DNA of 64,000 nucleotides from Bacillus sp. J37. Lineage in GTDB: Bacteria > Bacillota > Bacilli > Bacillales > Bacillaceae. This document shows positions 4,243-32,120 of this stretch, in pieces (position 1 is the stretch's first letter; each line of letters opens with the position of its first letter). The notes below the pieces were generated by a model, which worked only from the letters and a program-made list of their open reading frames with translations, did not search any database and had not been told where the DNA came from. The position numbers and the translations under genes are program-made. Location: contig NZ_JAEK01000001.1 of NCBI RefSeq assembly GCF_000518865.1, positions 62,001-126,000 of the forward strand. The letters run 5' to 3'.

Positions 4243-4533
4243 AATTCGAAAGTATTATCTAAATACAACATATATAATTTTGTGAACCAATGAGGGAGAA
4301 CAGTAAATAAGATAACACATGAAAAGAGAGGAAATGTCTTAGGCTGAAAGCATTTCTGCATGATGACTTATTGAAAAACACTCCTTAGGTTTCTCTCTGA
4401 AAAACAGTAAGTCCAGTAGGAGTAGAACGTGACAGGCGTTAACTGATCGAGTGGAAATAGATGATTATTTCAACTAGGGTGGAACCACGGGTATAACTCT
4501 CGTCCCTACATTTTGTAGGGCGGGAGTTTTTTT
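4243..4533 (+). promoter_or_regulatory. T-box riboswitch controlling hisS-aspS
   Basis: This leader senses uncharged tRNA and switches between terminator and antiterminator. The conserved T-box core AGGGTGGAACCACGG is at 4476-4490. A terminator follows: CTCTCGTCCCTAC, then GTAGGGCGGGAG, then seven T. Stem I shows an AGTA motif near 4304 and a GAGAGGAAATG...CATTTC distal hairpin. By alignment with the alaS leader the likely specifier is CAC (His) at 4379-4381, after GAAAAA; the exact codon is inferred. Confidence 0.93.
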
Positions 4534-7670: not shown

Positions 7671-7866
7671 TAAGAAAGTCCTGATGTGTTCGTTGTACAC
7701 CTAGTTTTGACCTAACATTTTTTATACGGGAGCTTGAAGTTTCCGGACAGAGTAAATGCCTCTCACTCGCATGAGGACTTACAAACCTCTGGAACAAAGC
7801 ACCCACCTGCTGAGTGCGGGATCAAAACGAGGGAAATGGCGACGGCACAATCGGGACTGCTACATA
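7671..7866 (+). ncRNA. bsrA: 6S RNA (BsrA type)
   Basis: 6S RNA binds the sigma-A holoenzyme as an open-promoter mimic and represses transcription in stationary phase. The position between aspS and tcdA is that of B. subtilis bsrA, and the sequence is highly similar to what I recall of that RNA (GTTTTGACCTAACATTTTTTATACGG, cut here to its recognisable core). The ends pair: AGTCCTGA (7677-7684) with TCGGGACT (7851-7858). The exact 5' and 3' ends are estimates. Confidence 0.88.
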
Positions 7867-18150: not shown

Positions 18151-19212
18151 ATGAGAGAAAAGCATATTAAGTGGCTGCTGCAAATAACGATATTATTATT
18201 AGCCTTATTATCCGTGTATGTATTTTTAAAACTTTACTCCGTATGGGCTCCTTTTTTAGTCATGTTTAAAGCTGTAATTATACCATTTTTAATAAGTGCG
18301 TTTATAACATATTTACTTCATCCGGTAGTTGAAAAGCTTCATCGTAAGGGCTTGCCCAGGTCAATCTCCATTCTTATTATATATTTCCTGTTTTTTGGGT
18401 TAATAGGATACGGCTTTTATAGGGGAATCCCTGTCTTAATAAGTCAGCTTAGAGATTTATCTGAAAACTTTCCACAGTTTACTATGATTTATAATCAATG
18501 GATGGATTCCATTCATGATCACACAGATACATGGCCTGTAGGAATTCACGACCGGATTGATCAAATGTTTAGTAAAACAGAAGAATGGCTTGCTGTTACA
18601 ATTGAAAAAGCTATTAATAGCTTAAAAGGTATTTTTGATTATATGCTCTTACTTGCGATAATACCGTTTCTTGTCTTTTATATGTTAAAAGATTATGAGC
18701 AAATCAAAAAGGCTGCATGGTATTTGACTCCCCGCAAATGGAGAAGTGGTTCCATTCAGTTTTTGAAAGACATTGATCATTCTCTGGGAAATTATATTCG
18801 GGGTCAATTGTTTGTCTGTCTTATAATTGGATCATTAGCTTTTTTAGCTTTGTGGTTTTTCCATGTTAAATACCCTTTAATTCTTGGTCTTTTAATTGGA
18901 ACCACAAATATTATTCCTTATTTCGGACCTGTCATCGGTGCCGTGCCTGCATTAATTATTGCTGCGACAATGTCGACAAAAACAGTCATCATCGTTATTG
19001 TTCTTATTGCAAGCCTGCAATTTATAGAAGGAAATATATTGGGGCCATTAATTGTAGGGAAGAGCCTTCATATGCACCCTATTGTTATTATGCTTGCATT
19101 ACTCGCAGGAGGGGAAATTGGAGGAGTGATTGGGTTAATGTTAGCGGTACCTGTTATCGTGATTTTAAAAGTTATGATTGTTCATCTTGCCCTTTTAAGA
19201 AGACAACATTGA
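18151..19212 (+). CDS. yrrI: AI-2E family transporter / permease YrrI
   Basis: A 353-residue polytopic membrane protein of the AI-2E transporter (UPF0118) family. About seven to eight hydrophobic segments are visible: two near the N-terminus (about 9-30 and 33-55), one at 65-85, a long extracytoplasmic stretch, then a C-terminal cluster including GLLIGTTNIIPYFGPVIGAVPA. The substrate cannot be predicted; family members include exporters and Na+/H+ antiporters. An AGGAGG site precedes the ATG. Its stop codon overlaps the alaS promoter -35 box. Confidence 0.88.
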   Translation: MREKHIKWLLQITILLLALLSVYVFLKLYSVWAPFLVMFKAVIIPFLISAFITYLLHPVVEKLHRKGLPRSISILIIYFLFFGLIGYGFYRGIPVLISQLRDLSENFPQFTMIYNQWMDSIHDHTDTWPVGIHDRIDQMFSKTEEWLAVTIEKAINSLKGIFDYMLLLAIIPFLVFYMLKDYEQIKKAAWYLTPRKWRSGSIQFLKDIDHSLGNYIRGQLFVCLIIGSLAFLALWFFHVKYPLILGLLIGTTNIIPYFGPVIGAVPALIIAATMSTKTVIIVIVLIASLQFIEGNILGPLIVGKSLHMHPIVIMLALLAGGEIGGVIGLMLAVPVIVILKVMIVHLALLRRQH

Positions 19213-19238
19213 CATTTAGAAAACGCTTGGTCTATAAT
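19209..19238 (+). promoter_or_regulatory. Sigma-A promoter of alaS
   Basis: TTGACA (19209-19214), an 18-base spacer and TATAAT (19233-19238), both perfect hexamers. It overlaps the stop codon of yrrI. Confidence 0.88.
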
Positions 19239-19244
19239 TCTAGG

Positions 19245-19660
19245 GTAGAATAAGGAAAAACGATGATGGAATAAAGTATGCTGATACCGCTTTTAAGAGA
19301 GGAATTTTCATGGCTGAGAAAAATTCTAAAGTCAGGGCAGCAGAAAGCTAATCCTAAGTGCAGAAAAACCTGCCGTATTGAACCACGTTACGGTTTTAAT
19401 AAAGGTGACGGACTGGTGGAGGTTCAAAGATTTGCTATTTAACTTTGTCTTACTGTCTAGCTAAAGGCGTCATCGGCAAAGCACTTGAAGTGCAAGTGCA
19501 GTCATGGCGATTGACGTCGCGTCTAAGACTGCCTCGAGGTCATAAGCCGATAAATAGACGCCTGCCGCTTTTCAATGTCCGTAATCAGGGTGGTACCGCG
19601 AGTTAACTCTCGTCCCTGTGTTAAGAGAATTCTTTTCACAGTGATGAGGGTTTTTTGTTT
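19245..19660 (+). promoter_or_regulatory. T-box riboswitch controlling alaS, carrying an inserted repeat
   Basis: The T-box core AGGGTGGTACCGCG is at 19587-19600. The terminator pairs CTCTCGTCCCTGTG with CACAGTGATGAGGG and is followed by six T. The likely specifier is GCT (Ala) at 19347-19349, after GAAA. A short stem III candidate pairs ACGGAC (19408-19413) with GTCCGT (19577-19582). A 121-base copy of repeat family A (19453-19573) lies within that loop, which makes the leader about 415 bases, longer than usual. Confidence 0.93.
19453..19573 (+). repeat. Dispersed repeat family A, copy A2, inside the alaS T-box
   Basis: The copy begins CTGTCTAGCT and ends GACGCCTGCCGCTTTTC. Its termini pair: GGCGTC-ATCGGC (19466-19477) with GCCGAT (19546-19551) and GACGCC (19557-19562). 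It shares AGTGCAAGTGCAGT, GATTGACGTC and GACTGCCTC with the other copies, but lacks the internal block of about 60 bases seen in A1 and A3. Confidence 0.8.
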
Positions 19661-19692
19661 ACTATTTATTAAAGAAGATATGGAGGATACAT

Positions 19693-22332
19693 ATGAGAAA
19701 TTTACAATCTGCAGAAGTTCGTCAAATGTTTTTGGATTTCTTTAAAGAAAAAGGTCATGATGTTGAACCGAGTGCATCACTCGTTCCTCATGAAGATCCA
19801 ACATTACTTTGGATTAATAGCGGGGTAGCAACATTAAAGAAATACTTTGATGGACGTGTCATTCCAGCAAACCCTAGAATTTGTAATGCACAAAAGTCCA
19901 TTAGAACAAATGATATTGAAAATGTCGGTAAAACAGCAAGACATCACACATTCTTTGAAATGTTAGGAAACTTTTCTATTGGTGATTATTTTAAAGGTGA
20001 AGCAATCGAATGGGCGTGGGAGTTTCTTACAGATGCAAAATGGATTGGATTCGATCCTGAGAAACTTTCTGTTACGATCCACCCTGAAGATCATGAGGCA
20101 TTTGATATTTGGAAAGATAAAATTGGCATTCCAGAAGAGCGCATTATCCGTTTAGAAGGGAACTTCTGGGACATCGGGGAAGGACCAAGTGGACCAAATA
20201 CAGAAATTTTCTATGATCGTGGCGAAGAGTATGGGAATGATCTAAGCGATCCTGAATTATATCCTGGTGGAGAAAATGAACGATATTTAGAAGTATGGAA
20301 CCTTGTATTTTCTCAATTTAATCATAATCCGGATGGAACATATACGCCGCTTCCGAAGAAAAATATCGATACCGGAATGGGATTGGAACGAATGGTATCT
20401 GTCATTCAAAATGTCCCAACAAACTTTGATACAGATCTTTTCATCCCGATTATTAGAGCAACTGAGCAAATCTCTGACGAACAGTACCGTAAGGATCAAG
20501 AAAAGGATGTTGCTTTTAAAGTAATTGCCGATCACGTTCGTACAGTAAGCTTTGCTATTAGTGATGGCGCTCTTCCATCAAATGAAGGTCGTGGATATGT
20601 ACTGCGACGTTTATTAAGAAGAGCTGTTCGGTATGCTAAACAAATTAATATCAACCGTCCATTCATGTTTGAATTGGTTCCTGTTGTCGCTGAAGTTATG
20701 GTTGATTTTTATCCCGAAGTTAAAGCAAAGACAGACTTCATTCAAAAAGTGATTAAAAATGAAGAAGAACGCTTCCATGAGACATTAAATGAAGGCTTAA
20801 CAATTTTAAGTGAAGTGATGAAAACTCAAAAAGGAAACGGCAATGATGTCATTCCTGGAGAGGATGTTTTCCGTTTATACGATACATACGGATTCCCAGT
20901 CGAATTAACGGAAGAGTATGCAGAAGAAGAAGGCATGAAAATTGACCATGAAGGCTTTGATAGAGAAATGGAAGCACAACGTGATCGTGCACGTGCTGCT
21001 ATGCAGAAGGTTGATTCAATGCAAGTCCAAGGTGGCATGTTAGGCGAGATTAAGCTTGAAAGCAAATTTGTAGGATATGACCAATTTGTTGTAGAAAATG
21101 CGACAGCGGTTGTTATTGTGAAAAATGGAGATGTCATTCAAGAAGCTCATGAAGGGGAAGAAGTACAACTAATTCTAGATCAGACTCCTTTCTACGCTGA
21201 AAGTGGTGGACAAATTGCGGATATTGGTACTCTTTCAAGTGAAAAAGCTGTTCTAAAGGTAAAAGATGTTCAAAAAGCTCCAAATGGTCAAAATCTGCAT
21301 AATGTAATTGTAGAAAGTGGCACAATTCAAACAGGTGATCAACTAACTGCAAGGGTTTTAGAAGAAAACAGAAGTGGTATTGTAAAAAATCACACGGCAA
21401 CACACTTGTTACATCAAGCCTTAAAAGATGTGTTAGGAACACATGTAAATCAAGCAGGATCATTAGTAACGTCAGATCGCTTAAGGTTTGATTTTTCTCA
21501 TTTTGGTCAAGTTACACAAGATGAGTTAGTTCGAATCGAACAAATTGTAAATGAACAAATTTGGAAAAGCATTGACGTTCAAATTGATTATAAGTCGCTG
21601 ACAGAAGCAAAAGAGATGGGGGCTATGGCCCTGTTCGGAGAAAAGTATGGTAATATCGTCCGTGTTGTTCAGGTTGGTGGCTACAGCTTAGAACTGTGTG
21701 GCGGTTGTCACGTACAAAATACTTCTTCAATTGGTATTTTCAAAATTATTACAGAAACAGGAATTGGAGCAGGTACAAGACGAATTGAGGCTGTTACAGG
21801 CAAAGCGGCATATGAGCTAACAAATGAACAATATGGTAGACTTCAAGAAGCTGCAGAACTATTAAAATCCAACCCTAGAGATATCGTGTCAAGAATAACC
21901 GGCCTTTTACAGGATTACCGTGCCCTACAGCGTGAAAATGAGTCTTTGACAACAAAGCTTGGAAATTTAGAAGCAGGTAATATCGTTGATCAAGCTGTCA
22001 CAATAAATGGTGTAACTGTATTGGCTGCAAAAGTGAATGCAAAAGACATGAATAGTCTTCGAGGTATGATGGATGACTTGAAAAATAAATTGCAATCAGC
22101 TATTGTTGTTCTCGGAGCTAGTGAAGATGGAAAAGTGAATCTTGTAGCGGGTGTGACAAAAGATCTAGTCGATAAAGGCTACCATGCTGGAAAGTTAATA
22201 AAAGAAGTGGCAGAACGCTGTGGTGGAAAAGGTGGCGGTCGTCCTGAAATGGCTCAAGCAGGTGCGAAACAACCTGAAAAGTTGACAGAAGCACTTAAAT
22301 ATGTCGAAGAATGGGTTGAATCCGTTTTATAA
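19693..22332 (+). CDS. alaS: Alanyl-tRNA synthetase
   Basis: It charges tRNA-Ala, recognising the G3:U70 pair. The 879-residue protein has the class II catalytic core ([20 protein letters not shown] near 80-100), the editing domain with zinc ligands H567, H571 (HTATH), C669 and H673 (CGGCH), a coiled coil near 705-745 and the C-Ala domain ending with [22 protein letters not shown] site precedes the ATG. It is transcribed from the T-box-controlled promoter. Confidence 0.98.
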
Positions 22333-31910: not shown

Positions 31911-31935
31911 AAGAAAGTATAAAATTTTATACGTA
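31911..31935 (+). repeat. Family B repeat fragment B5
   Basis: AAGAAAGTATAAAATTTTATA matches the core of copies B1 and B2 (CAGAAAGTATAAAATTTTAT). It is followed directly by a family A copy. Confidence 0.5.
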
Positions 31936-31940
31936 GTTTT

Positions 31941-32120
31941 AGTCCAGCTCCACAGCCTTGCCCCGAAGCACAGGATGTGCAAGTGCAGTTGTGGAGATTG
32001 ACGTCACGGTTTTAAACTGCCTCTAGGATCTAGCCACAAATGAATTGAGACAAAGAACGTCTTCTATTCATTTGCGTCTTATTTGCCTTAGGCAGATCAA
32101 GATGCCTGTGCTTTTCTTAT
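31941..32120 (+). repeat. Dispersed repeat family A, copy A3 (longest copy)
   Basis: It begins AGTCCAGCTCCACAG and ends GCCTGTGCTTTTCTTAT. It shares GTGCAAGTGCAGT and GATTGACGTC with A2, and the block AATGAATTGAGACAAAGAAC with A1. It ends four bases before the yrzA stop codon on the minus strand. Confidence 0.8.

Follow-up and report, generated by a model that had tools for sequence, protein, structure and literature searches.

In the lineage of G000, the genome that holds the DNA examined here, the terminal loop of stem III in the alaS T-box leader has probably received a foldback repeat that is mobile in this Bacillaceae genus, and we put the probability of this reading at about 0.78. The window, the whole stretch of 64,000 nucleotides that was analysed, belongs to contig C87 of a 5.34-Mb draft of one strain in 96 contigs, and G000 was compared with 20 relatives, giving a genus sample of 21 genomes. 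All positions are those of the window; the alaS gene, its leader elements and both repeat copies given by coordinates are on the plus strand.

The gene alaS (19693..22332) is an open reading frame for an alanine-tRNA synthetase of 879 amino acids, whose first 269 residues were matched in 21 of 21 genus genomes. The leader promoter TTGACA-18-TATAAT (19209..19238) agrees with the consensus at 12 of 12 positions and was the sole promoter-like site called in 19150-19720. Its spacer is 18 nt in G000 as against 17 nt in G003, G005 and G006, and the one extra G might alter promoter strength. The leader matches the T-box family RF00230 at 19254-19620 (76.5 bits, E 7.9e-17, model positions 1-219 of 219), and the alignment places 155 unmodelled nt in the stem III loop. 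As in other Bacillaceae alaS T-box leaders, stem I with a GCU specifier, stem II, stem IIA/B, the stem III motif, the T-box sequence, the antiterminator and a terminator are found ahead of alaS; the G000 leader differs in a stem III loop of 163 nt that is mostly dispersed repeat, and in scoring 76.5 bits where the curated gathering score is 93. This cut-off says little about the G000 leader, since the insert-free alaS leader of G005 misses it too with 91.4 bits.

Stem I, stem II and stem IIA/B occupy 19254..19407 in the Rfam alignment, closing with the purine string AAAGGTG ahead of stem III. The putative specifier codon GCU (alanine) was read at 19347..19349 in GAAA-GCU-A, positioned via the Rfam consensus GAAauuca. 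Stem III is made up of ACGGAC (19408..19413) and GTCCGT (19577..19582), the latter being followed by the AA of the RRRxG-stem III-AA motif described in a 2020 review (PMC7583486). The T-box sequence AGGGUGGUACCGCG and the antiterminator were aligned by Rfam at 19587..19618, and AATCAGGGTGG of the T-box sequence showed no variation across 15 distinct leader sequences. A competing intrinsic terminator with a T run at its end (19651-19656) is predicted by the MFE fold at 19597..19656, its start being approximate, and was not called in a strict terminator scan of 19150-19720. The sequence-only reading had taken the T-box core and terminator to be undamaged, which is borne out: the inferred specifier, AGGTG-stem III-AA, AGGGTGGTACC and the fold-derived terminator with its T run are all present and kept as in the insert-free relatives.

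The nearest relatives of G000 are G006 and G005, at 96.8% nucleotide identity. Except for a single indel of 159 nt, the G000 leader is nearly identical to the leaders of these two and closely resembles the G003 leader. The indel places the insert, composed of the dispersed repeat and its 5′ extension, at 19414..19575 with ends uncertain by a few nt. The stem III loop is thereby 163 nt in G000 and 4 nt in G006, G005 and G003, and the stem III region from CCACGTTACGG to GGGTGG measures 205 nt in G000, 46 nt in G006 and G005 and 47 nt in G003. A segment carried by all close relatives would have pointed to an ancestral leader part; the three aligned leaders, with their 4-nt loops, lack it. The repeat core (19453..19573), which matches 31 other genome places by blastn, is the 121-base segment that had been noticed from the letters as a dispersed repeat within the T-box leader. 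Its repeat nature (32 genome matches) and its place in the stem III loop stood, but its size did not: the insert is about 159 nt long, not 121, because the repeat family reaches about 40 nt further in the 5′ direction, and the left end had been set short. The right end of the core at 19573 agrees with the family end GCTTTTC.

Folding of the repeat on itself, also proposed earlier, was upheld for the closing stem, whose arms GGCGTC-ATCGGC (19466-19477) and GCCGAT-AAATA-GACGCC (19546-19551 and 19557-19562) are present and pair with a predicted probability of 0.83-0.94. The insert as a whole has, on the other hand, an ordinary folding energy (z = -1.0; 27 of 200 shuffles fold as well), and being not significant it was dropped as proof of structure. 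Module X (19478..19533; GAAGCAC..GTGCAAGTGCAGTC..GACTGCC in other copies) was recognised from copy listings, predicted hairpins and its presence or absence as a whole unit, while the second hairpin of other copies is lacking at alaS. No clean target-site duplication was seen at the insert, none of the listed open reading frames of at least 80 amino acids around alaS overlaps it, and no internal promoter or terminator was called in it by the scan of 19150-19720, which also missed the T-box terminator. The best-scoring other copy is just 86% identical to the alaS copy over 93 nt, too distant to identify a donor.

That the flanks at 19408-19413 and 19577-19582 pair as stem III was confirmed in the letters and by covariation across the genus leaders. 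With 6 pairs in 15 distinct sequences, 90 of 90 cells were paired, 5 of the 6 pairs had changed on both sides, and the covariation score was reached by none of 500 shuffles. The strands were cut out and registered by hand, and the 15 sequences represent 19 genus leaders and one outgroup, G010 being excluded for its shifted stem and G008 being absent. Folding of the G000 leader (ViennaRNA), as had been advised, gave a stem III pair probability of about 0.32 with 19453-19573 and 0.87 without it, but this measure is a weak guide because it spans 0.06-0.98 among four insert-free leaders; it is 0.01 or less in G011 and G017. The pair probabilities were too erratic to serve as proof of harm or harmlessness and were dropped as such, and modelled folding neither proves nor disproves intact sensing with the insert.

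With a 141-nt query around the segment, blastn found 32 matches in G000 at E ≤ 1e-3, the alaS place included; the count of repeat matches in G000 is 32 or 43 depending on the query, and a 175-nt query matched 14 of the 21 genus genomes. A chance repeat was ruled out, as none of 200 mononucleotide shuffles scored as well as the alaS segment against 54 other copies. Aligned copies have in common the ends TGTCTAGCTCC..GCGCTTTT[C/G], the closing stem, module X and the second hairpin, and those with both ends found (n = 24) are 60-206 nt long. A consensus fold of 14 G000 copies contains 44 pairs, 9 of them with changes on both sides. The second copy in the window (31935..32120, ends approximate), documented by a direct repeat, blastn, a terminator scan of its locus (L019) and comparison of the G005 and G006 sites, lies directly after a terminator-like hairpin. 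It has module X, whereas the orthologous sites of G005 and G006 hold copies without it, so modules are acquired or dropped by copies that are already in place.

The repeat family is mobile, as seen from empty orthologous sites. For 14 dispersed G000 copies the two flanks were joined and used as queries against G005 and G006, and one copy (L013) was dropped for its repetitive flank. Among the 13 callable copies, 4 sites were empty in both relatives, 7 in one, and 2 were occupied in both, which makes 11 of 13 empty in G005, G006 or both. Alignments displayed the missing stretch for nine copies with 13 empty loci and for one more copy, while L012 was called in G006 from the distance between its flanks (39 nt), with no alignment. 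At the L003 site, which counts as occupied, G006 holds a shortened copy reduced to its two ends. The copies could not be dated by divergence, since the best-scoring sampled neighbours of the four with doubly empty sites are just 83-93% identical. Repeat copies in G003 and G005 match G017 copies at 89-91% identity (L183 and L196; L204 and L205). Between G000 and G017 the genes are 77.5% identical, and in its genes G000 is close to G003 and G005; the high identity of the copies relative to the genes points to spread between species or strong constraint.

Short T-rich direct repeats flank the copies at several, not all, sites. In a terminator scan, for which 25 of 29 copies were scannable, a terminator-like hairpin with a T run was found just upstream of 9 of the 25, compared with 1 of 25 on the other side of the copies and 33 of 1000 random window stretches. 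This one-sided position 3′ of terminator-like hairpins suggests a T-rich or hairpin target. Of 18 T-box loci in G000, 3 have a copy within the T-box or directly after it, two of them (L175 and L177, with genes taken by eye for proB and thrS) with the copy close behind the T-box terminator, and the same position was seen at two loci in G005 (L280 and L283) and one in G017 (L261). A Y1_Tnp search of the genome returned one match, in whose 3.2-kb locus the repeat matches no more than 26 nt (E 0.005) and 10 nt (E 0.81), and as the Y1 transposase gene is not flanked by the repeat, a RAYT/REP origin was unsupported. No match at E 1e-5 was found in a plasmid collection queried with a G003 copy or in a phage collection queried with a G000 copy, and the repeat was found in none of 80 named alaS loci outside the genus (blastn, E ≤ 0.01).

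The lengths of leader segments were mapped in 19 of the 21 genus genomes, G014 lacking an anchor and the contig of G008 beginning within alaS. From the −35 element to CGTTA, covering stem I and stem II, the leaders measure 174-180 nt, and from AGGGTGG to the terminator T run 70-74 nt. The stem III region by comparison spans 40-249 nt and the post-terminator leader, from the T run to the ATG, 34-278 nt. The core segments thus differ by 4 to 6 nt and the other two by more than 200, which suggests that the stem III loop is one of two leader places where insertions may be tolerated. With G014 added, the stem III region exceeds 60 nt in 11 of 20 genus leaders; in the 35 of the 80 outside alaS loci that could be parsed it is 41-90 nt. 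In G009 and G013 (L118 and L123) long, differing stretches, repeat-like by eye, lie between the T-box terminator and the alaS start.

These observations are consistent with a course of events in which the repeat landed in the stem III terminal loop of the alaS leader in the G000 lineage, where, above stem III, it would form a branched hairpin of its own. The loop would be directed away from the working surface of the switch, and selection may purge insertions elsewhere in the core while sparing those in the loop, which would leave stem III and the post-terminator stretch as the two landing zones seen across the genus. According to the review, stem III lies in the discriminator that senses aminoacylation, and purines flanking it contact the antiterminator (PMC7583486); a hairpin at the loop end should on these grounds leave sensing intact, and judged by its conservation the switch presumably still senses tRNA and works.

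The repeat family is also present in the alaS stem III loop of G011 and G017 (0 of 200 shuffles each), which makes insertion there recurrent or old. Weak remnants were seen in stem III of G009 and G013 (1 of 200 shuffles each) and G014 (5 of 200), and putative remnants in G020, G004, G001, G012 and G019 were indistinguishable from 200 shuffles. Either there were two or more hits on the loop, in G000 and in the common ancestor of G011 and G017, or a single old insertion was followed by many losses. In the latter case the repeat would have entered once in the genus ancestor, been kept in G000 and G011/G017, decayed in G009, G013 and G014, and disappeared precisely from G003, G005, G006 and others, or been regained in G000 by recombination. 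This is unlikely in our estimate. It demands three losses down to the same short loop in G003, G005 and G006. In a tree of 8,220 aligned nt from seven neighbouring genes, support is 94% for (G006,G000), 100% with G005 added and 100% with G003 added, and with G000 nested in this insert-free group one gain is simpler than three losses. The G000 copy moreover scores up to 110 bits against dispersed copies, and the alaS copies of G011 and G017 are outside its best eight. An old insertion is kept alive by three further observations: G000, G017 and G020 share the 3′ junction TTTCAATGTCC, from which G011 and G014 deviate little; clean absence is common elsewhere, five copies held by both G000 and G005 being empty in G006 although G006 is the tree sister; and a FastTree of the copies, with long branches and support values absent, puts the three alaS copies near one another. 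The shared junction is weak evidence, however, because few insertion positions exist in a loop of about 4 nt. An ATCGGC motif common to the alaS copies was dropped as a sign of a single insertion, the motif also occurring in dispersed copies. Parsimony among the near relatives and the closeness of the copy to dispersed copies favour what would be a separate gain in G000.

The insert could have damaged the switch, with alaS mis-regulated in a transient state, locked off by extra structure or attenuated early; the drop of stem III pairing in one thermodynamic comparison and the single strain with a draft genome would allow this, but all core motifs are kept, the flanks are without decay, and in two other species a long loop bearing the repeat is retained between stem III strands that are complementary. 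Also speaking against damage are the essential role of alaS in bacteria and the lack of any terminator-like call in 19150-19720, albeit by a scan that missed the real terminator; damage is judged very unlikely. Recruitment is improbable to a slightly lesser degree. On this reading the insert, by adding about 159 nt to be transcribed and a large hairpin after tRNA anchoring and ahead of the terminator decision, would shift the response as a timer or contact surface. Recruitment would fit a loop that was occupied recurrently or long kept, the long stem III regions of 11 of 20 genus leaders, and what looks by eye like compensation in the closing stem, where the G000 copy has GGCGTC/GACGCC and many copies of its subfamily have GGCGCC/AGCGCC. 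Insert size and modules nevertheless vary between species, no conserved alaS-specific sequence was found, and tolerance by itself accounts for the pattern. A bolder version is speculative and rather doubtful: stem III of T-boxes in the genus may repeatedly recruit the mobile hairpin for use as an adjustable spacer, whose 160-210 additional nt would delay the terminator decision relative to tRNA anchoring and tune the alanine response, and the unexplained domain insertions in T-box stem III may have arisen in this way. An assembly or alignment artefact, which the 96-contig draft and the repetitive family could invite, has a negligible probability given that both flanks are collinear with G006, G005 and G003, that the alaS copy is unlike all others found (86% over 93 nt at best) and that it lies within a 385-kb contig.

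A repeat joined to T-boxes is already known. In the pneumococcal trp leader a BOX element lies between two T-boxes, which the authors infer to be still working (PMC3049150). The two cases are alike in architecture only, a modular structured repeat being cotranscribed with T-box RNA in one leader; BOX stands between two T-boxes, while the G000 repeat is inside one, in a helix of the aminoacylation-sensing domain. No precedent for a mobile repeat inside a T-box helix was met in searches of open-access papers, where BOX in the trp leader was the one repeat found joined to T-boxes. Like bcr1 and other bacterial MITE-like repeats, compared here by their description (PMC3733652), the family is short, foldback, multi-copy and polymorphic for presence or absence at orthologous sites; it differs in having no tied transposase (Y1_Tnp alone was searched) and no regular target-site duplication. 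Its closing stem sits inside the 5′ extension, and the T-rich direct repeats occur at some sites only, none being seen at alaS. Insertions in T-box stem III and helix A2 likewise add sequence to stem III of the discriminator, and the 2020 review counts such domain insertions, of unknown structure and function, among the open questions (PMC7583486). For the insertion in G000 a source is identified, and the alaS locus names the mobile repeat as one concrete source of T-box domain insertions. The almost identical leaders of G000 and of G006 and G005 form natural plus/minus pairs, and the genus leaders together are a natural insertion-tolerance map of a large riboswitch.

Further T-box and RNA loci were noted alongside. 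In the window, a further T-box leader (4281-4510) and a 6S RNA (7675-7861) score above their Rfam cut-offs. The stretch G005:C1:56439-57217 contains three tandem T-box matches, and in G022, of the same family and another genus, the stem III region is the same as in a Metabacillus lacus record.
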